Positions 38,454 to 50,950 of a stretch of 64,000 nucleotides of DNA are shown here, one piece after another. Each line of letters starts with the position of its first letter. Positions within the stretch are counted from its first letter, which is position 1. A model generated the notes under the pieces. The model saw only the letters and a list, made by a program, of their open reading frames with translations. It was not told where the DNA came from and did no database searches. Source of the stretch: Ensifer adhaerens (GTDB taxonomy: Bacteria > Pseudomonadota > Alphaproteobacteria > Rhizobiales > Rhizobiaceae); the NCBI RefSeq assembly GCF_002007205.1, contig NZ_LAZS01000009.1:124001-188000 (forward strand), read 5' to 3'. The position numbers and the translations under genes were made by a program.

Positions 38454-38795
38454 TCAGTTGAGCTTGAGATCGAGGCCGGGATGCAGTTTCTTGAGGTTCG
38501 GCAGCGACTTCGACTGCCAGGGGATCTCCGAGGTCCCGCGCACCGTCAATTGCACGTTCGGGCGGTTGCGCGCCTCGATCGTCAGCTTGGCGAGCAGGTT
38601 GATCCCGGACGAGTTCAGGAATTGCAGTTCGGTGAGGTCGATCGTGACGTGCTCAGGCTCGGTTTCCAGTACGCCCATCACCGTCGAGAAGATCGGGGCA
38701 TAGGCTTCCGTTCCCGGCAACCGCATGGTGCCTTCGAAATGAATATCGTTGCCTTCGGACCAAACGCGATACTCTTCTTCGTCCTTGTTTTCCAT
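38454..38795 (-). CDS. STAS-type protein (slr1659-like anti-sigma antagonist fold)
   Basis: 113 residues, cytoplasmic. Strand and helix order and the segment [21 protein letters not shown] match a STAS fold, where the Ser of the NSSG turn (Ser62 or Ser63) is the usual phosphorylation site in anti-sigma-factor antagonists. It starts 13 bases after the stop of the HATPase gene and ends a five-gene operon with a PP2C phosphatase. By family logic the HATPase would phosphorylate it and the phosphatase would remove the phosphate. Its own partner is not in view; it could be the STAS-methyltransferase or an unlinked protein. Confidence 0.72.
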
Positions 38796-38808
38796 GTTCA
38801 CCGGCTCA

Positions 38809-39369
38809 TCAGTTCGAGAGGTCTGGGACCGCAATGGAGGCATAGGTCTCCAAGGAGGTTTCGCCGTCGTCACCCTGAGCGCCAAAAACCCAAGCGAAAC
38901 GAACGCCATAATCGCTCATCAGCGTCAAAAGACCAAGCCCCGAGCCGCTCTTGCCGAGCCCGGTTGCGTTTGCCTCGATACGCTCGATGAGCAAGTCGCC
39001 GGGATCGCCGTCGGCGATCTCGGAAAGCAGTTCCTGGAAGCGGGCGGCCGCTTCGTTGTCGATCACATTCGACACCTTCGTGCGGAAGCTGTGGCCCTCG
39101 AGGGCAGCCTCGACGACGACAGAACCGGAGGCGCGGAACTTCACGGCATTCTCGACCAGCTCGTTGGTCAGGTAGCCGATATTGTGGCGCACTTCCCGAT
39201 AGGTGTTGCGCGAGGCGCGGTAGCGCAGCGCCGCCAGTTCGGCGACGAAATCCGAAGCCATGGCGCAATGCTTCCAGCTGAGATCGAGCGGCCCGTCGTA
39301 GAGACGCAGCCGGGTCATCTTCTGGTGGGCACCGATCGTCAGGTCCGCCAGTCCGTAGAGCGTGGTCAT
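38809..39369 (-). CDS. HATPase-domain protein (slr1658-like, anti-sigma kinase fold)
   Basis: 186 residues. A GHKL ATPase is visible: N-box [10 protein letters not shown] (69-78, Glu70 and Asn74) and G-box [14 protein letters not shown] (138-151). There is no phospho-accepting His domain, so it is of the soluble SpoIIAB/RsbW-like type that phosphorylates STAS proteins on Ser. It starts five bases after the phosphatase stop and is followed 13 bases on by the STAS gene. It is the intact kinase candidate of the operon. Confidence 0.75.
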
Positions 39370-39373
39370 CTGA

Positions 39374-41734
39374 TCACCTGTGTCTCATGACGACGAGCGT
39401 GATGTCGTCATATATCTTCTGCTTGCCGATATGCGCCATCAGGTCGTCGATGATGCCCGCTTTGACGTCCTCGGCGCTTTGTCCGTAAAACTTTCCGGCG
39501 CTTGCGCACAGCCGCTCGATGCCGAACAGTTCGCCCTTGGCGTTCGCCGCCTCGGTCACGCCGTCCGTGTGTAGCACGATCATGTCGCCGCGGCCGAAGG
39601 ATATCTCGCGGGTGGCGACGAAGCGCGAAATATCCGATTCGAGACCGATCGGCAGGCCGAGGTCCAGCGTGTCGATCCGCTCGATTTCGGCACCCTTGCG
39701 CACCACGATCAGCTCCTCGTGCTGCCCCGACAGCGTCAGGCGGCCGTGGTCGTAGTCGAGGAAGGCTAGCGACAGGTGCTTGTCGGTGTTGGTGCGCACG
39801 ATGTTCTTGTAGATGGCGCGGTTGAGGCGGTTGAGGAACTGCTCCGGCTCCATGTCGCCGGCTTCCTGCAGGGCGCGGGCGACCGACTGCACCATCAGCA
39901 TCAGCACACCGCTTTCAAGGCCATGACCGGTCACGTCGCCGATGCCGATCTTAAGCCGCTCGCCGTCACGCAGCACGTCGTAGTAGTCGCCTCCCACCTC
40001 GTCGGCCGGCCGCATATAGGCGGCGATCTCGAGGTCGGCGATTTCCGCGAGCTCGCCGGCCTTCGGCAGCACCATCATCTGGATCTGCTTGGCGACGGCG
40101 AGTTCGGCCCCAAGGCGCAGGTTCTCACTGCGCAGTTGGGTATTCAGCGTCGAAATCTGGTGGTTGGCGTCCTCGAGCTGCTTGGTGCGTTCGGTCACCA
40201 GGTTTTCGAGGTTCTCGGTGTGGTAGCTGATCTCTTCGGCCATGCGGTTGAAGGCGATGGCGGCTTCACCGACTTCGTCGCGCGTCGTAATGGGCACACG
40301 GACGGAATAATCCTTCGCTTCGATGCGGGTCGCCGCTCCGGCGAGCGCGCTGATGCCGCGGGTAACGCGCTTGGAAATGCCGAACACGGCGAGCGTGACG
40401 AACAGCAGCGAAGCGAGCAGGGCCAGGATCTGATAGATGAGGATGCGGTTCGTCGCTTCAGAGATACTCGCCTGCGCCGCAAACAGTGAGGCATAGATTT
40501 CCCGCTCCGGCACGACGATGCCAATCGACATGGTCTCGCGGCGCACCGGACCGGACACCCAGAAGTTCTCTGGCTCGAGCTGCTTCAGGAGAATGAGATA
40601 GGGGACCTTCTCACCGCCCTCGTCGAGTAGTACCCGCTGAATGGCGCCATCGGAGCCAAGCGGCAGCTCTGTGATCGCGGGCTGTACGCTGCGGCGCAGC
40701 GAGCGCTCCAACCCCGTGACGCCTTGTCCACCAGTGTCGCTCGACCGCTGCAGGCCGATTACCTTTTCGCCGACTGGATTGATGGCAAGCACATTGCCGT
40801 CGGACATCACAAGAAATCCGAAGCCACTGTCGCCGACTTTGACGCTTTCGACAACCTCGGCCAGTTGATCGAGCGTGATATCGGTTCCGGTCGCTCCGGC
40901 GACACCCTTGCGGTCGGGCGTCCAGAGCGGCTGGAAGAAACTGACGATCAGTTTGCCCGAGGCGGCATCGGTGTAAGGTTGCGTTTGCGTGGTATCGGCT
41001 GCAACGGGCCTGAGGTTCGGATGCTTCGCCCATTCCTCCCAGGACTCGTAGAGGCCGGGGAAGAAGAAGCTCCAGAAGTTGGCTTCGTTGTGACCGGGGT
41101 AGAGACGGTCGAACGTCTGCGCCTGATCGGCATAGGGCGCCATCCGCAAGATCGGCCGTTCTTTTGGCCCGACATAGTACATCTGCAGTTTGGAGCGGCC
41201 GTGCGCAAGCAGGGCGGGAGCAACCAGATCGAGAACGGCGCTGTTCTCGATATCGGTCTGCACCTCGGGTAGCGGCCGGTGGTCGGGGCCAAGGAGATAG
41301 CTCCAAACGCTTACGCTCGAGAGCTGTCCCGGAAGGTTCTGCGCCCACCCACCTTTGGGATCGTAAGTGACGGTAACGGATTCCGGTGCATGCCGGGCAA
41401 GTGCCTCCCCCACGTCGGACCTGCGCACGGGGCGGTCGATCTGCGCTTGCAGCACGCCCGCGAGCGTGGCGACGTCGGCGTGAACCTGGCCGAGCAGAAG
41501 ATTAACCCGCGCGGCGGTCGAAACCGCGTAGGTGAGCATGTAATCTTCGTTGGCCTTTTGCAGGCCCTGTCCGACCTCCGTCGTCGCGTCACGCGACAAT
41601 CTTTGAACGTTCCAGAGCGCCAGACCGCCTGTTAGCAGGAGGTCGAAGAGCACGGCGCTGCCGACCACCAGCACGAACTTGGCGCGAAAGGATCTCAAAC
41701 CAAACCAGGGACGTTGGATATTGCTTGCGCTCAT
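39374..41734 (-). CDS. Membrane sensor PP2C (SpoIIE-type) phosphatase
   Basis: 786 residues. One membrane segment near residue 25, a periplasmic double-Cache-like sensor (about 45-420), a second segment (ILIYQILALLASLLFVTLAV, about 425-448), a HAMP domain, a coiled coil, then the phosphatase (about 540-786). The metal-binding motifs are complete: DEVGGDYYDV, IGDVTGHGLESG, LHTDGVTEAAN and YDDITLVV. It should sense a periplasmic ligand and dephosphorylate STAS proteins in the cytoplasm, like SiaA of Pseudomonas or RsbU-type phosphatases. Its ATG overlaps the stop of the STAS-methyltransferase gene. Confidence 0.87.
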   Translation of the reverse strand: MSASNIQRPWFGLRSFRAKFVLVVGSAVLFDLLLTGGLALWNVQRLSRDATTEVGQGLQKANEDYMLTYAVSTAARVNLLLGQVHADVATLAGVLQAQIDRPVRRSDVGEALARHAPESVTVTYDPKGGWAQNLPGQLSSVSVWSYLLGPDHRPLPEVQTDIENSAVLDLVAPALLAHGRSKLQMYYVGPKERPILRMAPYADQAQTFDRLYPGHNEANFWSFFFPGLYESWEEWAKHPNLRPVAADTTQTQPYTDAASGKLIVSFFQPLWTPDRKGVAGATGTDITLDQLAEVVESVKVGDSGFGFLVMSDGNVLAINPVGEKVIGLQRSSDTGGQGVTGLERSLRRSVQPAITELPLGSDGAIQRVLLDEGGEKVPYLILLKQLEPENFWVSGPVRRETMSIGIVVPEREIYASLFAAQASISEATNRILIYQILALLASLLFVTLAVFGISKRVTRGISALAGAATRIEAKDYSVRVPITTRDEVGEAAIAFNRMAEEISYHTENLENLVTERTKQLEDANHQISTLNTQLRSENLRLGAELAVAKQIQMMVLPKAGELAEIADLEIAAYMRPADEVGGDYYDVLRDGERLKIGIGDVTGHGLESGVLMLMVQSVARALQEAGDMEPEQFLNRLNRAIYKNIVRTNTDKHLSLAFLDYDHGRLTLSGQHEELIVVRKGAEIERIDTLDLGLPIGLESDISRFVATREISFGRGDMIVLHTDGVTEAANAKGELFGIERLCASAGKFYGQSAEDVKAGIIDDLMAHIGKQKIYDDITLVVMRHR

Positions 41735-42906
41735 AGTGGTTTGCGCCCGGACGCCGCCCAGATCGGCCAGCCCGCATAGCCCTTCGGATGCAGCGCAGCG
41801 AAGATGTGATCCCGGAAGCCTTGGCGGAACCGCTCGATGAATTCGGGTGCTTCGCCGTGTCTCATCGCCATGTCCGCAAACATCTTCTCCCAGCCGGCGA
41901 TGATATCGGCGAAATCCTGTGGGTCACCATCCAGATTGGTGACCATGAAGGATTCGACCAGGATGTCGTCGAAGCCCGTGTCGGCAAGATAGCGCCGGCT
42001 CTTTGGCCCGAACTCCACATCTATCTCGAAATTACTCAAAAGCCGTGCGAGCTCATTGTAGGTCCATTGGATGCTTTGCGCCCGCGGCTCGCCGAGGCAG
42101 TGCGAGTTCTTCTCGTTGGTGATGTAGACCCGGCCGCCCGGCTTCACGATCCTGTAGAGTTCCTTGAGAAGCAGCTCCGGCTGATTGAAGACCTGCACCG
42201 AGTGGCGGCAGGCCACGAAGTCGAACTGGTTGTCCTCAAGCAGCATCTCCGACGCGTCGCCGTAGGTGTATTCGATACCCGTCACGCCGAACTCGGCGGC
42301 CACCTTTCGGGCATAGGCGAGGCTCGGCTTGGAGTGGTCGAGCGCGACGATCCGCGCCGGCTGGAACTCCTTCTGCGCAAGCACGGCGAAATCGCCGATG
42401 CCGCAGCAGATGTCGGCCACGGCGATGCCGGGCCGCATGCCGTGGCGCGGCAGGATAGTGCGCTCGTGGCGCCAGGTCAATTTCGTCTGCGCGCGGAGAA
42501 TTGGAATGAAGCTCGTATCCTCGAAGTAGTCCTGGCCGGGATAGAACATCGAATCATAGACCTCGACGGAGATCTGCGGCTCGATCGTGCTCAGGTGCCG
42601 GAACATGCGCGTCGTCCAGCTGACGACGCTTGACGTGACGATGACCAGACGCAGGTCCGATCGCTCGCGGCAGGCGTCGAGGGCGACCCGGATGAAGGCC
42701 TGGAAGGCCGTGTTGTTCATCTGGATGAGGCGCTTCACATCGATATAGAGAACGCCGCGCACCGCATCGATCGCTTCCCTCAGCGCATGGATGCTCTCGG
42801 CGATTTCATCGATCGAACGCGGTCGAATCGTTCCGGCAAGCGAGAAGATCTGGCTGTTCGGGTCAAAACCGACCTTGAAACGCTGAGGAAGGCCCGCCGC
42901 GATCAA
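41731..42906 (-). CDS. STAS-like / SAM-dependent methyltransferase fusion
   Basis: 391 residues. Residues about 10-120 look like a STAS-type domain (VLYIDVKRLIQMNNTAFQAF); the usual phospho-Ser turn reads MNNT, so Asn or Thr replaces Ser. Residues about 130-390 are a class I methyltransferase with motif I VADICCGIGDF (164-173) and the acidic post-I residue in VALDHS (Asp190). The TTG start is supported by AAGGA eight bases upstream and a TTGA overlap with the preceding gene; no other start fits. The fusion implies that partner switching controls a methyltransferase. Its substrate is unknown; UbiE-like similarity would be generic. Confidence 0.72.
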   Translation of the reverse strand: MIAAGLPQRFKVGFDPNSQIFSLAGTIRPRSIDEIAESIHALREAIDAVRGVLYIDVKRLIQMNNTAFQAFIRVALDACRERSDLRLVIVTSSVVSWTTRMFRHLSTIEPQISVEVYDSMFYPGQDYFEDTSFIPILRAQTKLTWRHERTILPRHGMRPGIAVADICCGIGDFAVLAQKEFQPARIVALDHSKPSLAYARKVAAEFGVTGIEYTYGDASEMLLEDNQFDFVACRHSVQVFNQPELLLKELYRIVKPGGRVYITNEKNSHCLGEPRAQSIQWTYNELARLLSNFEIDVEFGPKSRRYLADTGFDDILVESFMVTNLDGDPQDFADIIAGWEKMFADMAMRHGEAPEFIERFRQGFRDHIFAALHPKGYAGWPIWAASGRKPL

Positions 42907-43421
42907 CTCACCATTCCTTCAAGAGGAAGATCCACGATCAGGGTGATAGCCGGAGCCGCATCCTCGTCAAGCCGGAGGCGGGCGTCGTAGTTCACAGCGA
43001 GGTCCAGAAGCACCGATTCCCGGCTGGGGGCAAGGTCGTTGGAAATGGCGTCGAGATAGCGGGCCTGGGCATCGCTCTCACGGGTTTTCGATACCGCTTC
43101 ACGATAGAAGCGCGCCTGGCCCGGCGGGCAGGGGAAGCTCAGCTGAACCCGCTCCGTGGCGCCTTGGCGATAGATCGACAACCCGATCTTGCCGTCGGTG
43201 GTGCCGCCGCGAAATGAAACCTCGAGAAGCTCGTTGAGCGCGGAGGAAAAGAAGTTCGAATGCCGTACCGGATCGGTCCGGTTGTGGCTGATCATACGCG
43301 CGAGGTAGCTCGAAACATGGTCGCAATGGTGCCAGTCCGAGAGGAAATCTTCCATCTCCATATCGAACTGAAGCAAGGGCTCGAAAGCCGTCTCCGTGGT
43401 CTTGTTGACACTAGCACCCAT
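42903..43421 (-). CDS. Degenerate HATPase-like protein (SiaB/DUF6272-like)
   Basis: 172 residues. The helix NFFSSALNELLEVSF resembles the N-box of anti-sigma kinases (compare [10 protein letters not shown] in the operon's other ATPase), but the metal-binding Asn is replaced (LEVSF) and no glycine-rich G-box is visible. It may be a SiaB-like kinase with unusual motifs or a pseudokinase that only binds STAS partners. It heads the five-gene operon; the ATG has GGAGG ten bases upstream. An upstream extension of the frame has no ribosome site. A STAS-methyltransferase gene overlaps its stop. Confidence 0.62.
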   Translation of the reverse strand: MGASVNKTTETAFEPLLQFDMEMEDFLSDWHHCDHVSSYLARMISHNRTDPVRHSNFFSSALNELLEVSFRGGTTDGKIGLSIYRQGATERVQLSFPCPPGQARFYREAVSKTRESDAQARYLDAISNDLAPSRESVLLDLAVNYDARLRLDEDAAPAITLIVDLPLEGMVS

Positions 43422-43567
43422 GCAGCAATGCCCTCCGCACCCCGAACTCTGCCACGGCCATAAACCACTTTCTATAATGATTTCTAACCACGTACCCCCC
43501 GGATCTCGCATCAAACAACCCAGGTTTTGCCCCGCGCCGCATGAGGTGCAACGCATAGATGCGTAGG

Positions 43568-45244
43568 CTACAGCGTCGCCATTGCCGATGAGCGTCGAAG
43601 ATACGCGCCGATCGCGTCTGCAGGCATGGGCATGCCCAGGAAATAACCCTGCAGGCGGTCGCAACCCTCTTTTCGAAGCCAGACGGCCTGCCCGATCGTC
43701 TCGACGCCCTCGGCGGTCACGCGCATGCCAAGACCGTGGGCAAGGCCGATGATCGACCGGACGATCGTCTGGCTCTTTTCGTCGCTCTCCAGATCCTTGA
43801 TGAAGTAGCGGTCGATCTTGATCGTATCGAAGGGGAAGTTCTTGAGGTAGCTGAGCGACGAATAGAAGGTGCCGAAATCGTCGAGGGAGATCTGGATACC
43901 GAGCACGTTGAGCGTGTTCAGCGTGTCGAGGTTGTTGGTCGTGCGTTCAAGCAGCACCGATTCTGTGACCTCGAGCTCAAGCCGGTCGGCCCTCAAACCT
44001 GCCATGTCGATCGCCTGGGCGATCCGGTCTGTCAGGCCCTCGCGCAGGAACTCCGCCGGCGACAGGTTGACGGCGACGGTGAAGTGCGACGGCCAGGTGG
44101 CAGCCTGCCGGCAGGCCTCCTCCAGCACCCATTGGCCGATCTCGTTCATCAGGCCGTCGGCTTCCGCCATCGGGATGAAGACGTTGGGCGGGATCGTGCC
44201 CACCAGCGGATGGTGCCAGCGCACCAGTGCCTCGAAGCCGACGATCGAAAATGGCGGCTCGACGAGCGGCTGGTACTCGATCGAAAACTGCTTGTCCTGC
44301 AGCGCAGTGCGCAGACTGCGGCGCAGCATCTCGCGCTGTTCGAGCACGATCAACATGGAGCGGCTGAAGGTCTTTGCCCGGCCCCGTCCGTCCTTCTTGG
44401 CGGCATAAAGCGCGATGTCCGCCGCCTTCATCAGTTGTTCGATGTCGTTTCCGTCATTCGGCGCAATGGCAATGCCGATGCTGGCGCCGACGAAGACGGA
44501 GATGCCGTCGATCGTGAAAGGTTCGCTGAACGCCTGGATCAGGGTTTCGGCGAGATATTCGGCGTCCGCCGGCTGGTCGCTGTGGCGCTGGATGACGGCG
44601 AACTCGTCGCCGGCGAGGCGATAGGCGACTTCACCGTCGCGAAGGGTGCCGCGGATGCGCTCGGCGGCCATTTTCAAGACCGCGTCGCCGGCGCCGTGGC
44701 CGAGCGTGTCGTTGACCGGCTTGAAATCGTCGAGGTCGATCTGCATCAGCGCCAGCTTCTCGCCCGGCGTCGGCAGGATGCTTTGCAGATCGTCGCTGAA
44801 CTGCCGCCGGTTGGGCAGGCCGGTCAGCACGTCGTGCGTCGCCTGGTGCAGGAGCAGCGCGCGCTCGCTTTCGCCATGGCTGCCGACCTCGCGGCGGGTC
44901 GAGCGGCCGCTCGTTTCGAGCACGCCGATGCCACGCATGGCGCGGAAGACGAGCAGCGTGCGCCGTGATTTGGTGGTGGCGTCGACGACTTCGACGCTGC
45001 GCGGCACGCCGTGAGCGATGACGGATTCAACCGCGGCCTTCGACACCGGCGCAAGCAATTCGGGATAGAGATGCCACAAGGTGGCATCGACGAGCGTGCC
45101 GACCTCGTAGGTTTCCTGCAGCGCCGGCGAGGCGCCGGTCAGATGAAAGGCTTCGTCATAGAACGAGAGGACTTCGTCCAGATGGGCCGCAACGGGATCT
45201 TGCACTGAAGCTGAAGCAGACAAGGTTGCGTCAGTGTCCGGCAT
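43568..45244 (-). CDS. Diguanylate cyclase/phosphodiesterase (PAS-like-GGDEF-EAL)
   Basis: 558 residues, cytoplasmic. An N-terminal PAS-like sensor (about 15-125) is followed by GGDEF (about 150-305; active-site loop LAGDEFAVI, Ala for first Gly, still compatible with activity) and EAL (about 320-550; GFEALVRWHHP, NLSPAEF, DDFGTFYSSLSYL, KIDRYFI, TAEGVET). Key EAL metal ligands appear present, so it may make or break cyclic di-GMP. AAAGG precedes the start. It lies 146 bases upstream of the partner-switching operon on the same strand, an arrangement that recalls siaABCD, where the phospho-switch controls a diguanylate cyclase. Confidence 0.87.
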   Translation of the reverse strand: MPDTDATLSASASVQDPVAAHLDEVLSFYDEAFHLTGASPALQETYEVGTLVDATLWHLYPELLAPVSKAAVESVIAHGVPRSVEVVDATTKSRRTLLVFRAMRGIGVLETSGRSTRREVGSHGESERALLLHQATHDVLTGLPNRRQFSDDLQSILPTPGEKLALMQIDLDDFKPVNDTLGHGAGDAVLKMAAERIRGTLRDGEVAYRLAGDEFAVIQRHSDQPADAEYLAETLIQAFSEPFTIDGISVFVGASIGIAIAPNDGNDIEQLMKAADIALYAAKKDGRGRAKTFSRSMLIVLEQREMLRRSLRTALQDKQFSIEYQPLVEPPFSIVGFEALVRWHHPLVGTIPPNVFIPMAEADGLMNEIGQWVLEEACRQAATWPSHFTVAVNLSPAEFLREGLTDRIAQAIDMAGLRADRLELEVTESVLLERTTNNLDTLNTLNVLGIQISLDDFGTFYSSLSYLKNFPFDTIKIDRYFIKDLESDEKSQTIVRSIIGLAHGLGMRVTAEGVETIGQAVWLRKEGCDRLQGYFLGMPMPADAIGAYLRRSSAMATL

Positions 45245-45775: not shown

Positions 45776-47572
45776 TCAGTGCGTGCTCAGAATCACGTCG
45801 GTCTTCTGGAAGGTCCGGACGTCGATCAGGCCCTTGTCGGAAATCCGGAGTTCCGGAATGACGACGAGCGCCAGCAGCGAGTGCTGCATATAGGCGTTGT
45901 TGAGCCGGCAGCCGCAGGCGCGCATCGCCTCGACGATCGCAGCGGCCTTTTCGGCGACGATTTCCGCCCGCTGATCCGACATCAGGCCGGCAACGGGAAG
46001 TTCGACCAGGGCCAGCTCGCGGCCTTCCTTGAAGACGACGATGCCGCCGCCAACCTCGTGCAACCGGTTGGCGGCCTTGGCCATGTCCGCCTTGTTCGTG
46101 CCGACGACGATCATGTGGTGGCTGTCATGGGCGACCGTGCTGGCCATAGCGCAATCGCTGTCATAGCCGAAGCCGGAGACGAAGGCGTTGACCACGTCGC
46201 CGGTGCCGCGGTGGCGTTCGACGAGCGCGATCTGGCAGATGTCGTTGCCTCGGTCCATCTGCACGAGACCGTTATCGATCGCGACGTCGGCTTCCAGCGC
46301 CCGCGTCGGCGCCTGGTTTTCGACGACGCCGATCACGTTCACGCGTGCCCGTGTCGCCCGCGCATTCGAGGGGATGTCGAAATCCGCGGCAGCCAGCATC
46401 CGGCCGAGATGCACAGTGTTGCAGGCGCTTTCCGGATAGACATAGGCCGGGATATCGCGCACCAGCGTGCCGCCTTCGGCCAGGAGTTCGCCGCGGGCAA
46501 AGACCATCTCGATCGGCAGCGCGGCAAGGTCCGACGTGACGATCAGGTCTGCCCGGCGACCCGGTGCGATCGAGCCGAGTTCGCGCTCGAGGCCGAAATG
46601 CTGGGCGGTGTTGAGCGTCGCCATCTGTATGGCGGTAATCGGCTTCAGTCCTTGCGCGATCGCGTGGCGCACCACGCGGTTCATGTGGCCGTCGTGTACC
46701 AGCGTGCCGGAATGGCTGTCGTCCGTGCAGAGCAGGAAGTTGCGCGGATCAAGGCCGGATTCCGTCACCGCCTTGATCTGCGCGGCAACATCGTACCAGG
46801 CCGAACCGAGCCGCAGCATGGCGCGCATGCCCTGGCGCACGCGGGCGATCGCGTCGTCGACCGTCGTGCCTTCATGATCGTCCGCTGGCCCGCCGGCGGC
46901 ATAGGCGTGGAATTCGCGGCCGAGATGGGGGGAGGCATAGTGCCCGCCGACGGTGAGCCGCGCATCCTGAGTGGCGGCGATCTCGGCCATCATCTTCGGG
47001 TCGTTTCCGGCAACGCCGGGGAAGTTCATCATTTCGCCAAGGCCCATGATGTTCGGCCAGGCGAGCGCCTCGGCGACATCCTGAGCCGAAAGCTCGGCGC
47101 CGGCGGTCTCGAGCCCCGGCGCGCTCGGTACGCAGCTCGGCACCTGCACCAGCACGTTGACCGGCAGGCTTTGGGCCTCCTCATTCATCAGTCGGACGCC
47201 GGCAAGGCCGAGCACATTGGCGATCTCGTGCGGGTCGATGAACATCGTGGTGGTCCCGTGCGGGATGACCGCGCGGGCAAATTCGGTGACGGTGACGAGA
47301 CCGCTCTCCACATGCATGTGGGCATCGCAGAGGCCGGGAACGAGATAGCGCCCAGCGGCGTCGACGACCTTGGTGCCTTCGCCGATCGTGTGGCTGGCAT
47401 CCGGACCGACATAGGCGAATCGGCCGGCTTTGACGGCGATATCGGTTCCGGGGATGATTTCGCCGGAGTAGACGTTGACCCATTTGCCGTTGCGAATCAC
47501 AAGATCGGCGGGCTTGCGGCCCATGGCGACGTCGACCAGTTCGGGTGCGGTCTTCGACCAGGATTGAAGCAT
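45776..47572 (-). CDS. ade: Adenine deaminase
   Basis: 598 residues, the usual length. It converts adenine to hypoxanthine plus ammonia in purine salvage. Amidohydrolase metal motifs are seen: His-Met-His at 85-87 (DAHMHVES), DPHEIANV at 113-120, and LCTDDSHSG further on. The C-terminal adenine-deaminase domain (from about 420) is present. AAGGAA lies eight bases before the ATG. It is the last gene of an operon that also encodes a purine permease and a second deaminase-like protein, under the divergent LysR regulator. Confidence 0.93.
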   Translation of the reverse strand: MLQSWSKTAPELVDVAMGRKPADLVIRNGKWVNVYSGEIIPGTDIAVKAGRFAYVGPDASHTIGEGTKVVDAAGRYLVPGLCDAHMHVESGLVTVTEFARAVIPHGTTTMFIDPHEIANVLGLAGVRLMNEEAQSLPVNVLVQVPSCVPSAPGLETAGAELSAQDVAEALAWPNIMGLGEMMNFPGVAGNDPKMMAEIAATQDARLTVGGHYASPHLGREFHAYAAGGPADDHEGTTVDDAIARVRQGMRAMLRLGSAWYDVAAQIKAVTESGLDPRNFLLCTDDSHSGTLVHDGHMNRVVRHAIAQGLKPITAIQMATLNTAQHFGLERELGSIAPGRRADLIVTSDLAALPIEMVFARGELLAEGGTLVRDIPAYVYPESACNTVHLGRMLAAADFDIPSNARATRARVNVIGVVENQAPTRALEADVAIDNGLVQMDRGNDICQIALVERHRGTGDVVNAFVSGFGYDSDCAMASTVAHDSHHMIVVGTNKADMAKAANRLHEVGGGIVVFKEGRELALVELPVAGLMSDQRAEIVAEKAAAIVEAMRACGCRLNNAYMQHSLLALVVIPELRISDKGLIDVRTFQKTDVILSTH

Positions 47573-47598
47573 GACTGTTTCCTTCGGATGGGCGATGT

Positions 47599-47623
47599 CG
47601 GCGCCCTTGCATTAAGGGCGCCG
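47599..47623 (-). terminator. Intercistronic hairpin between permease and deaminase genes
   Basis: A ten-base stem (CGGCGCCCTT with AAGGGCGCCG) and five-base loop sit in the 67-base gap between the NCS2 permease stop and the deaminase start. No T-tract follows on the minus strand, so it more likely adjusts mRNA stability or read-through than stops transcription. Confidence 0.45.
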
Positions 47624-47639
47624 TCGGATTTTCTGCCGG

Positions 47640-49040
47640 TTACTGGGTCTGGGCGACGAGCGTTGCGGCAAGCAGTGCCACGAACCACATGACCGGTCTT
47701 ACATCGCGCGCCCGGCCGCAGACCAGCTTGACCAGCACGTAGGCGATGATCGCAAGCGACAGGCCCAGCGTAATCGAGAAGGTGAGCGGGATCAGGACGA
47801 TCGCCAGGAAGGCCGGGATCGCCTCGTCGAGCGCGCTCCAGCGAATGTTGCTGATCGGTTCGGACATGAAGAGCCCGGTGAGGATCAAGACGGGTGCTGT
47901 CGCAACCGCGGGCACCAGCGACAAGAGCGGCGACAGGAACAGGAAGGGCACGAAGAGCAGACCCGCGACCAGCGCGACGAGACCTGTCCGCCCGCCCTGC
48001 TGAATGCCGGCGCCGGATTCGAGATAGACGGTCGCCGGGCTTGTTCCGAGCGGCGCGGAGATCAGTGCTGCAATCGCGTCGACATGCATGGATTCGCGGA
48101 TATTGCGCGGCATGCCGTTTTCATCCTTGAGGTCGGCAGCTTCCGCGAGGCCGAGGAAGGTCGAGAGCGCCTCGATGAAATTGGTGAACAGGAAGACGAA
48201 GATGAACGGCAGGTAGATCAGGTTCAGTGCGCCCAAGAGATCGATCTGGCCGACGAAGCTGAAATCCGGTGCGGCGGAGAAGCCGCTCCAGTTGACCAGC
48301 GTGTGCACGTCAGGCGTCTCCGGCGAGAAGGCGCTGCCGTCGCCCCACCAGCGGCCGATCGGGATCGCAAGGATCGTCGTCAGGATCATACCGGCCATCA
48401 TCGCACCGGGAACGCGGCGCACCACCAGCGCGACCGTCAGTATGAAGCCGGCGATGAAGGTGAGCGTGACCGGGTTGAACTGCGTCAGCCCGACGATCGT
48501 GTCGGGGTTGGCGACGATGAACTTGGCGTTTTCCAGGCCGATCAGCGCGATGAAGAGGCCGATACCGCAGGCGATGCCATAGCGCAGATCGACCGGGATC
48601 GCCTCGATGATCGTCTGGCGCAGGTTGAAGAAGGCCATGACGGTGAAGAGCACGCCGGCCCAGAAGACGCAGCCGAGCGCGATTTCAAGCGGCACCTTGG
48701 CGCCGACCACCATGGTGTAGGCAAAGAGCGCGTTGATGCCCATGCCGGGTGCCACCAGAATGGGGCTGCGCGCATAAAGTCCCATGGCGCAGCTGCCGAT
48801 AAAACTGACGAGCACGGTCGCGGTCACGCCTGCCGAAAACGGAATGCCGGCATGCGAAAGGATCGAGGGATTGACGACAATGACGTAGGAGGCCGCGAGA
48901 AAGGTCGTGAGCCCCGCAAGGATTTCGGTGCGGAGGGTGGAGCCGAAACGCGAAATCTGGAAGTAGCGGTCGAGGAGCGCGCCGAGCCAGGATGTCTCCC
49001 GGCCCGGCGCCGCCTCCACGGTCTTGTTCTGAATGTTCAT
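47640..49040 (-). CDS. NCS2-family purine permease (AzgA/GhxP-like)
   Basis: 466 residues with about 13 membrane segments. The N-terminus (YFQISRFGSTLRTEILAGLTTF), the segment APGMGINALFAY, and the late ATVYLESGAGIQQGGRTGL stretch are typical of the AzgA subgroup of NCS2 proton symporters for adenine, guanine and hypoxanthine. It should import the purine for the two flanking deaminases. Gaps to both neighbours are about 60 bases with hairpins, so it is co-transcribed but possibly at adjusted levels. Confidence 0.9.
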   Translation of the reverse strand: MNIQNKTVEAAPGRETSWLGALLDRYFQISRFGSTLRTEILAGLTTFLAASYVIVVNPSILSHAGIPFSAGVTATVLVSFIGSCAMGLYARSPILVAPGMGINALFAYTMVVGAKVPLEIALGCVFWAGVLFTVMAFFNLRQTIIEAIPVDLRYGIACGIGLFIALIGLENAKFIVANPDTIVGLTQFNPVTLTFIAGFILTVALVVRRVPGAMMAGMILTTILAIPIGRWWGDGSAFSPETPDVHTLVNWSGFSAAPDFSFVGQIDLLGALNLIYLPFIFVFLFTNFIEALSTFLGLAEAADLKDENGMPRNIRESMHVDAIAALISAPLGTSPATVYLESGAGIQQGGRTGLVALVAGLLFVPFLFLSPLLSLVPAVATAPVLILTGLFMSEPISNIRWSALDEAIPAFLAIVLIPLTFSITLGLSLAIIAYVLVKLVCGRARDVRPVMWFVALLAATLVAQTQ

Positions 49041-49065
49041 TTTGTTCCCCTTTTTTGAAACGGCA

Positions 49066-49092
49066 GAGGGGGCCGGTATGACCGGCCCCCTC
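49066..49092 (-). terminator. Intercistronic hairpin before the permease gene
   Basis: GAGGGGGCCGGT pairs perfectly with ACCGGCCCCCTC (12-base stem, three-base loop), eight bases after the stop of the second deaminase. A run CAAAAAAGGGG follows, giving no T-tract on the minus strand. It likely attenuates or stabilises the operon mRNA. Confidence 0.5.
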
Positions 49093-49100
49093 CCTGAGCA

Positions 49101-50900
49101 TTATTCCGCGGCTTCGGCGCGCTCGTCCCCGCCTGCCGGTGCGAACGGCGAGATCACCTTCAGCCGGACGCAGTCGACGACACCCAGATCGGTGATCGCA
49201 TATTCCGGGATCGCCGTAATCTGCAACACGAACATGTACATGAAGGGCCAGGGCAGCGGGCAGCCGAGCGCGCGGGCCGCATCGTCGAGCTGATCCTCCA
49301 GCGCCGCCATCTCGGCCGGTTCGATGTCGGAGACGATGCCGCCGATCGGCAGGTGCAGGAAGGCTTCGACCTTGCCGTTCCTGACCACCACCTGGCCGCC
49401 ATTGTTGGCGATCAGGTGGTTGATGGCGATGCGCATGTCCTCGAGATCGGCGCCGATGCAGATGATGTTGTTGTCGTCAGGCGCGGTGGAGCTGGCGATC
49501 GCGCCTTGCTTGAGGCCGAAGCCGGAGGTAAAGGCGACCGGGCGGTTCTGGGTCTTGCCGTAGCGCTCGACGACCGTGACGTATTGCACGTCCCGCGCGG
49601 GATCGGCGAGGACCTGGCCGTCCTTGACCGCGAGCGTGACATCGCGGCGGGTGCGCACGAAGATCTTTTCCGGGGTGACGGCGATCGCCATCGCGTCCGC
49701 CGTGTCGCCGGCGCCTTCATAGGCGACCTTGAGGTCGCCGGGCTGGAGCGGTTTTACCTTGACCGAGTTGAGGAGGGCGACGCTGCGTTCCGGCGGCGTC
49801 AGCTCGATCGCCATCTTGCCGTTCCGGGCGACCACTTCGCCCTTGGCGACGACGGTCTCGATGTTGAAATTGCGCAGGTCGTTAACGAGCAGGATGTCGG
49901 CGGCGCGGCCGGGCGAGATCGAGCCCACCTTGTCGTCGATGCGGAGCGCATCGGCGCCGTTGATCGTCGCCATCTGGATCGCCGCCATCGGCGAAATGCC
50001 CATGGCGATCGCCATGCGCACCATGTTGTCGAGATGGCCGCGCTTCAGGATGTCGCTCGCCACCACGTCATCGGTGCAGAAGCTGATGCGGCGAAGCGCC
50101 TTAGCGCCCATTTCCGTGACGATGCGCAGGTTGTCGGCGAGGAAGTGAGAGATCGAGGATTCGCGCACGACGACATGCATGCCGGCGCGCAGCTTTTCGA
50201 GCATTTCCTCGGGCGTATAGCTCTCATGGTCGGCGCGGACGCCCGACTGCTGGTAGCCGTTGAGCCTTGCGCCACGCGTCATCGGGCAGCAGCCGAGCAC
50301 CGGGAGCCGGCTCTTTTCGGCAAGTTCCAGCGCCGCCAGCACGTCGGCGTCTTCCTCCTGGATGAATTCGCGTACCGTCTCCCAGATGCCGACGCATTCC
50401 GGCCAGTGGTGCGTCGCCTTGTGATCGGCCGGGCTGAAATAGTGGCCGACGGTCGAGCGCGGCATGGTGTAGGGCGTCTTGCACGGCGCGCCCCAGAACA
50501 CCTTGAGCGGCGTCTGCTTCGCCTCGTCGAGGAACTCGCGTGCCGCAGCCGGGCCGCCGACGACGATGATCTGGTCGAGGCCGGTGACGATCGAGGTGGT
50601 GCCGAGCGGGACGACGGCCTTGGCAAAGCTCGTCAGCGACATCTTCGAGCATTCGACATGCAGGTGCCCGTCGATCATGCCCGGTGCCAGATACTTGCCC
50701 GTGGCGTCGACGATTTTCGTTGCCGGGCCGATATAGTCGGAGATGTCACCGACGGCGATGATGCGTTCGCCGTAGATGGCGACGTCGGCCTGATAGATCT
50801 CTTCGGAGACGACGTTGACCAGACGACCGCCGCGGATCGCCAATGTTGCCTTGCCGCCGGTGCCGGATGCGGCGCGAATGAATTCTCTGATATCGCTCAC
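49101..50900 (-). CDS. Divergent adenine deaminase paralogue
   Basis: 599 residues from a GTG with AGAGG five bases upstream; an ATG 13 codons earlier has no good site. It has the same architecture as the neighbouring adenine deaminase: His-Leu-His at 79-81 (DGHLHVEC), a TDD segment (SFCTDDVVASD) and the adenine-deaminase C-terminal domain. However, where the true enzyme has DPHEIANV this one reads TGLDQIIVV (106-114). Loss of that conserved motif suggests a changed metal site or substrate, perhaps another purine or an N-acyl ring. It is the first gene of the operon, and its start faces the LysR gene. Confidence 0.8.
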   Translation of the reverse strand: MSDIREFIRAASGTGGKATLAIRGGRLVNVVSEEIYQADVAIYGERIIAVGDISDYIGPATKIVDATGKYLAPGMIDGHLHVECSKMSLTSFAKAVVPLGTTSIVTGLDQIIVVGGPAAAREFLDEAKQTPLKVFWGAPCKTPYTMPRSTVGHYFSPADHKATHHWPECVGIWETVREFIQEEDADVLAALELAEKSRLPVLGCCPMTRGARLNGYQQSGVRADHESYTPEEMLEKLRAGMHVVVRESSISHFLADNLRIVTEMGAKALRRISFCTDDVVASDILKRGHLDNMVRMAIAMGISPMAAIQMATINGADALRIDDKVGSISPGRAADILLVNDLRNFNIETVVAKGEVVARNGKMAIELTPPERSVALLNSVKVKPLQPGDLKVAYEGAGDTADAMAIAVTPEKIFVRTRRDVTLAVKDGQVLADPARDVQYVTVVERYGKTQNRPVAFTSGFGLKQGAIASSTAPDDNNIICIGADLEDMRIAINHLIANNGGQVVVRNGKVEAFLHLPIGGIVSDIEPAEMAALEDQLDDAARALGCPLPWPFMYMFVLQITAIPEYAITDLGVVDCVRLKVISPFAPAGGDERAEAAE

Positions 50901-50950
50901 TGGAACCTCTTCTCCCTTAGCTCCAGTGAATATTCCCAATTCCGGACCGT

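Follow-up and report, generated by a model that had tools for sequence, protein, structure and literature searches.

What does a partner switch control when no sigma factor is encoded beside it? The question is raised by a run of six minus-strand genes in a 64,000-nucleotide stretch of Ensifer adhaerens DNA (contig NZ_LAZS01000009.1, positions 124,001 to 188,000; the whole stretch is called the window below). In order of transcription they encode a GGDEF-EAL protein, a degenerate ATPase of 172 amino acids (aa), a 391-aa fusion of a STAS part to a methyltransferase, a 786-aa sensor phosphatase, a 186-aa ATPase and a 113-aa STAS protein. Regulation by partner switches is mostly described for sigma factors and, in Pseudomonas, for one diguanylate cyclase. 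None of the six genes encodes a sigma factor, in agreement with the initial annotation of the window. The reading favoured here, with slightly better than even confidence, is a partner switch of slr1658/slr1659 type that works through a phospho-STAS protein and has the methyltransferase as its effector.

Organization of the cluster

Five of the genes (38454-43421) overlap or nearly abut, and the GGDEF-EAL gene lies 146 bp upstream of them. The spacings in transcription order are this 146-bp gap, two successive 4-bp overlaps, a 4-bp gap and a 13-bp gap; genes, coordinates, overlaps and gaps are all as first annotated. An ATG start was adopted for the 172-aa open reading frame, for which a longer alternative with a TTG start is also present. 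The features, all on the minus strand, are the following.

43568-45244, minus: GGDEF-EAL gene, 558 aa (Pfam); lineage-specific partner of the cluster
42903-43421, minus: degenerate slr1658-like ATPase, 172 aa, predicted pseudo-kinase (below the NCBIfam NF047703 cut-off; profile match)
41731-42906, minus: STAS-methyltransferase fusion, 391 aa, TTG start (Pfam, NCBIfam, profile comparison, motifs)
42712-42714, minus: codon of Asn65 of the fusion STAS, standing where a phospho-Ser would be expected (alignment)
about 41734-42486, minus: class I S-adenosylmethionine (SAM) methyltransferase part of the fusion (Pfam Methyltransf_11)
42388-42414, minus: SAM motif DICCGIGDF of the fusion (motif)
39374-41734, minus: sensor phosphatase, 786 aa, with transmembrane stretch, periplasmic dCache-like sensor, transmembrane stretch, HAMP and SpoIIE PP2C domain (Pfam)
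40229-40378, minus: HAMP domain of the sensor phosphatase (Pfam)
39380-39964, minus: SpoIIE PP2C domain of the sensor phosphatase (Pfam)
38809-39369, minus: GHKL-type ATPase, 186 aa, slr1658 superfamily, predicted Ser kinase (NCBIfam NF047703)
39136-39165, minus: N box of the canonical ATPase (motif)
38926-38943, minus: G2 box SGLGLL of the canonical ATPase (motif)
38454-38795, minus: STAS protein, 113 aa, slr1659 superfamily, predicted switch phosphoprotein (NCBIfam NF047705)
38610-38612, minus: codon of the predicted phosphoacceptor Ser62 in FLNSSG of the small STAS protein (motif)

The canonical pair and the sensor phosphatase

The last two genes encode members of curated families. The 186-aa ATPase scores 167.6 bits against NCBIfam NF047703 (slr1658) and the 113-aa STAS protein 132.2 bits against NF047705 (slr1659), each with a cut-off of 100; the STAS protein also matches Pfam at E 2.4e-5. 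The genome of the window holds just two slr1658-family and two slr1659-family matches, all of them inside this cluster. No solved relative of the ATPase was found by sequence at E up to 0.1.

Motifs were counted in 89 sequences, namely the window and 88 further loci, which include near-copies and two S. meliloti strains and are thus not independent. The N box of the canonical ATPase (N69, E70, E73, N74, A75, K77 and F78) is retained in all 89, and both glycines of its G2 box (G144 and G146) in 88. The N-box Asn binds the metal in GHKL ATPases, and the classical G1 box carries an Asp. Here an Asn stands at the position of that Asp, so that the description of this protein as an intact GHKL ATPase holds for the N and G2 boxes but not for the G1 box. 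The turn N61-S62-S63-G64 of the small STAS protein is invariant (89/89). According to PMC7647112, SiaC of Pseudomonas aeruginosa is phosphorylated at T68, which follows an Asn in the peptide LLYLNTSSIK; Ser62, equated with T68 by this motif, is the likely phosphosite.

The third component is the sensor phosphatase, with Pfam matches to SpoIIE (E 1.2e-38) and HAMP (E 8.8e-12), two hydrophobic transmembrane stretches and a dCache_1 match below its cut-off (E 1.2e-7, 31.9 bits against 45). Its Asp-containing motifs GGDYYD, GDVTGHG, TDGVTEA and DDIT are kept in every one of the 89 sequences. PP2C phosphatase, kinase and STAS protein thus all retain their catalytic motifs or phosphosite, and the partner-switch anatomy first annotated is upheld. 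The phosphatase is the only SpoIIE match in the genome of the window at E <= 0.001. Its periplasmic sensor is 49-92% identical over 12 tested loci and contains 67 residues invariant in the 89 sequences, a degree of conservation that suggests a single class of ligand.

The degenerate pair and the methyltransferase

Pfam gives no match for the 172-aa protein, even with E values as high as 1. Against slr1658 (NF047703) it scores 38.5 bits (E 7.6e-10), well under the cut-off of 100, and a profile-profile comparison pairs it with the canonical ATPase at E 8.3e-7 (probability 91.6). The STAS part of the fusion behaves alike, with 34.8 bits (E 1.7e-8) against slr1659, also below 100, and E 6.1e-8 (probability 94.7) against the small STAS protein. 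By these scores the two are divergent relatives of slr1658 and slr1659 rather than members. Because the matches below the cut-offs are supported by the profile comparisons, the operon is read from its sequences as carrying one kinase/STAS pair twice over, once in canonical form and once in a divergent form that has a methyltransferase joined to it. The initial annotation was right in calling the 113- and 391-residue proteins STAS-like and in describing a degenerate HATPase and a STAS-like/methyltransferase fusion; it had not recognised the HATPase and the fusion as a degraded duplicate of the canonical pair.

The divergent pair has lost most of what the canonical pair keeps. N64-N65-T66-A67 of the fusion aligns with N61-S62-S63-G64 of the small STAS protein, and position 65, which faces S62, is Asn in 84 sequences, Ala in 2, Ser in 2 and Met in 1 (n = 89), a loss of the phosphoacceptor in 87. 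Position 68 of the 172-aa protein, aligned to the N-box Asn, is Val in 75, Ile in 5, Thr in 5, Met in 2 and Leu in 2, and never Asn. The glycine-rich G2 box is not kept there either.

The methyltransferase has been preserved. The fusion belongs to the class I SAM methyltransferases by its Methyltransf_11 score (E 1.3e-18, 67.8 bits, cut-off 21.2), and D165, C167, C168, G169, G171, D172, F173 and D190 are invariant in 89/89. No named methyltransferase family, UbiE/MenG included, could be assigned; the best score, 63.4 bits, falls short of the cut-offs, 158 and 216, and none of the matches listed (25 of 51 NCBIfam families) reaches its cut-off. Among solved structures the closest are methyltransferases of several kinds (3mgg, phosphoethanolamine N-methyltransferases and others), and they do not fix the substrate. 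The nearest named relatives of the fusion come from Ensifer. Their source names read 'methyltransferase', and STAS is mentioned in none among the 120 relatives listed. Many public records label the 172-aa degenerate ATPase itself (window 42903-43421; P0243, P0246, L136 4581-5099) as 'ubiquinone biosynthesis methyltransferase UbiE', a label that has probably spread from the neighbouring gene.

Distribution and phylogeny

The cluster is patchily distributed. Within the same family the 172-aa protein was matched in 8 of 81 sampled genomes and in none of the other 73. In all eight, whose loci extend about 1.5 kb on each side, it is followed by the fusion and then by the start of the phosphatase, with the GGDEF-EAL gene in front in six. 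A contig scan with the fusion alignment gave 270 relatives, of which the best 80 were examined; these are Rhizobiales by title, plus one titled only 'Bacterium'. The five genes stand in the same order in all 80, and in 79 the GGDEF-EAL gene directly precedes them on their own strand, the exception being L028, where it is inverted about 1.7 kb away. All six genes are present on pSymB of Sinorhizobium meliloti 1021, and annotated S. meliloti pSymB has the same gene order. In the strain Ensifer aridi LMR001 the complete five-gene cluster occurs twice, on separate contigs (L026 and L028).

In a class sample of 385 genomes, the N-terminal part of the fusion was found in four, and the slr1658 family in the same four, each with a second copy below the cut-off. 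In the phylum samples the fusion part occurs in 6 of 398 genomes. Matches to slr1658 occur there in 10 of 396, and seven of these exceed the cut-off, namely the six fusion genomes and a seventh (G509); the remaining three are weak and partial. Three genomes of another family in the class (G155, G366 and G444) keep the five-gene order. Over the aligned parts their proteins are identical to those of the window at 61% for the small STAS protein, 59-61% for the fusion, 58-59% for the phosphatase, 48-50% for the canonical ATPase and 32-36% for the 172-aa protein; the fusion is thus conserved to the same degree as the small STAS protein and the phosphatase, and more than either ATPase. Such conservation of gene order, well beyond the strain in which it was first noticed, is more than chance.

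A tree of slr1658 proteins (17 canonical, 17 degenerate, 10 outside) separates a degenerate group (support 100/100), a canonical group (86/91) and the outside sequences (98/95). It agrees with the degenerate ATPases having arisen once and having been inherited beside the canonical ones since, although long branches may be meeting and one degenerate row (L106) is very long, so that the older pair cannot be assigned.

Neighbouring genes

The GGDEF-EAL protein is well defined by Pfam (GGDEF E 1e-44, EAL E 3.6e-71). No match to it lies beside the cluster at 5 of the 88 loci, in the three genomes of another family and in two of the same family (G033 and G064). G033 and G064 have 15 and 26 GGDEF matches, and the genome of the window has 31. 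In G155, G366 and G444, which are 93-97% complete, no GGDEF domain was detected genome-wide. Cyclic di-GMP, named in the initial annotation as a possible output, is thus not a general core output, and since these three outlying genomes have no GGDEF match it is unlikely to be a necessary one. The GGDEF-EAL gene is better read as an add-on of most Rhizobiales copies.

At these five loci the GGDEF-EAL gene is replaced by an upstream, divergent gene for a SpoIIE phosphatase that is soluble and begins with a coiled coil; with a threshold of E 1e-20 it is found at these and at none of the other 83. Beside the cluster in G033 (L105 9146-15179) the soluble PP2C is accompanied by another PP2C, a cNMP-binding one, and by an AAA protein similar to ClpB/ClpV; the genes that follow resemble, as judged by eye, parts of a type VI secretion system. 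The coiled coil of the soluble phosphatase of L105, searched in five genomes at E <= 0.01, gave a single match each in its own G033, G064, G155 and G509, and nothing in the genome of the window, in whose proteins the helix is not seen. G509 is Magnetococcus-like by an identical protein record (P0121), and its match (E 4.2e-5) is the diguanylate cyclase in front of a simple set of slr1658, slr1659, a PstS-like binding protein and a membrane phosphatase, the last of which scores weakly against SiaA (50.8 bits, where the cut-off is 700). The PstS-like periplasmic protein lies between slr1659 and the phosphatase (L129 6351-7229) and is perhaps a ligand carrier for that sensor.

The helix motif is present twice in the G509 cyclase. 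With helix pieces picked by eye beforehand, none of 2000 full or heptad-preserving shuffles reached the score of copy 1 against copy 2 or of copy 1 against the phosphatase; the score of copy 2 against the phosphatase was reached once in 2000 full shuffles and never in 2000 heptad-preserving ones. The stalk of SiaD has two SiaC-binding motifs, according to PMC8457831. We infer that the shared coiled coil may be a helix on which STAS proteins of slr1659 type dock in general.

Upstream of the cluster, at 45776-50939 of the window, a permease-like gene lies between two adenine-deaminase-like genes; the first of these, the only one checked, matches Pfam Adenine_deam_C.

Proposed mechanism and alternative readings

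In the favoured reading, a periplasmic ligand would signal by way of the dCache-HAMP stalk to the PP2C domain; this domain would dephosphorylate Ser62 of the small STAS protein, and the slr1658-type ATPase would rephosphorylate it. The second pair would be an old copy of the same module turned adaptor, made up of a phospho-dead STAS-methyltransferase and an ATPase devoid of nucleotide motifs. The canonical kinase, the pseudo-kinase or both may hold the STAS-methyltransferase where classical switches place the sigma factor; competition is the likeliest wiring, and the partners in it are guessed. Dephosphorylated small STAS protein would then compete for the ATPase with the phospho-dead STAS, or free the methyltransferase from the pseudo-ATPase. 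The signal would thereby set methyltransferase activity, which would be the output. Anatomy, the retention and loss of motifs and joint inheritance are the observed basis of this scheme, from which phosphorylation, binding partners, competition and methylation are deduced. A fuller version is put forward tentatively and with somewhat less than even confidence. It describes a methylation-output partner switch in which one pair has become a pseudo-kinase/phospho-dead adaptor and the other senses, served by exchangeable neighbour modules; these would be the GGDEF-EAL protein and the soluble PP2C, whose helix also heads the G509 cyclase and would be a general docking helix.

Several observations weigh against the methyltransferase switch. 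The profile probabilities that join the two pairs are good but not overwhelming, and the degenerate ATPase of two of the six fusion genomes in the phylum sample (G029 and G689) gave no score against slr1658. Two fusions among the 89 (L074 and L081) have Ser at the phosphosite, and the neighbouring position 66 is Thr in 59 (Ala, Val, Met, Ile or Leu in the others), so that the loss of phosphorylation in the fusion is not absolute. Moreover, identity among matches to the methyltransferase part drops directly from 73% to 35% (60 rows sampled down 282 plasmid records), and its chemistry is therefore not readable from relatives. Finally, the adjacency of the GGDEF-EAL gene in Rhizobiales is strong, with a position directly upstream on the same strand at 82 of the 88 loci.

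This last point also speaks for a Sia-like cyclic di-GMP switch, in which the STAS proteins would gate the adjoining GGDEF-EAL protein and the methyltransferase would be a side branch or feedback. The AGDEF and EAL motifs of the GGDEF-EAL protein are intact in all 84 sequences, a STAS-like protein is known to target SiaD (PMC8457831), and a diguanylate cyclase adjoins the simple slr1658/slr1659 pair of distant G509. We nevertheless consider this reading unlikely, given the five loci that lack the adjoining gene, the three genomes among them (only 93-97% complete) with no detectable GGDEF domain, and the lack of any match at E <= 0.01 to the soluble-phosphatase helix in the genome of the window; nor is the GGDEF-EAL protein of the window a SiaD, scoring 103.5 bits, over the GGDEF part only, against the 290 of the SiaD equivalog (NF038266).

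The target might instead be unlinked (a sigma factor, an AraC-type regulator or another enzyme), with the canonical pair controlling it and the degenerate pair and methyltransferase buffering or scaffolding. Classical partner switches do act on sigma factors (PMC11619594), and 49 of the 88 loci have a gene for an AraC-type regulator in their flanks, which extend at most 10 kb to either side; in 45 of them the identity is 45% or more. The gene occupies two different positions, downstream of the cluster and oppositely oriented at 31 loci and upstream of it in the same orientation at the other 18, at 19 bp to about 5.8 kb (for example, L026 14498-15664). At the window, the regulator is rejected as a fixed part, its best match in the genome being just 31% identical and on another contig; a scaffold role would also leave the invariant SAM motif unexplained, and such a target seems quite improbable. 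That same motif, kept in 89/89 while the attached STAS part and the partner ATPase have degenerated, would suit a methyltransferase domain that serves as a SAM sensor and not as an enzyme, its occupancy tuning STAS-ATPase binding so as to integrate the periplasmic signal with the methyl-donor state; that no substrate can be inferred from relatives or structures agrees with this. The C-terminal half of the domain is strongly conserved too, however, with H, P, G, Y, A, G, W and P of HPKGYAGWP invariant in 34 rows, which is more like an acceptor pocket, and the sensor is the least probable of the readings considered.

If the methyltransferase switch is correct, coupling to a methyltransferase would be a new output for partner switches, present in the 80 examined rhizobial loci and in S. 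meliloti 1021. It would also be a clean case of a pseudo-kinase/phospho-dead substrate pair becoming an adaptor.

Comparison with known systems

The partner switch as a kind is already known. For slr1658 a regulatory role has been described in Synechocystis, where cells with the gene disrupted recovered less well from iron limitation and expressed a Pgr5-like gene more strongly (PMC7555055). No description of a pseudo-pair with a methyltransferase, or of this rhizobial locus, was found in the open literature, subscription papers being mostly outside the search. The Synechocystis proteins Slr1658 and Slr1659 are, like the canonical pair here, an ATPase and a STAS protein from adjacent genes, and the pair here exceeds the curated cut-offs. 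The single simple set considered, that of G509, has one pair and no methyltransferase, whereas the present cluster adds a second, degenerate pair and the STAS-methyltransferase fusion.

SiaABCD of Pseudomonas aeruginosa follows the same logic, with a sensor PP2C, a kinase, a STAS-like phosphoprotein and a GGDEF protein, such as lies nearby in most copies of the present cluster. The initial annotation accordingly saw an expanded Sia system here, a view that the family scores do not bear out. The sensor phosphatase reaches 133.4 bits against the SiaA equivalog NF038263 (residues 425-784 only, cut-off 700) and the canonical ATPase 19.2 bits against the SiaB family NF038262 (cut-off 85). The SiaC family is known as DUF1987, and no SiaC-type match to the small STAS protein was found at E up to 1 in Pfam or NCBIfam. 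With SiaD also far below its cut-off, orthology to SiaABCD is rejected; no protein here is a Sia family member by score, and the cluster adds a predicted phospho-dead STAS-methyltransferase and a pseudo-ATPase to that plan.

RsbU, RsbV and RsbW are a PP2C phosphatase, a STAS antagonist and a GHKL kinase of a sigma-factor partner switch (PMC11619594). The same three kinds of protein are found here, but they belong to other kinase and STAS subfamilies, no sigma factor lies among the six genes, and a methyltransferase is proposed in the place of the effector.

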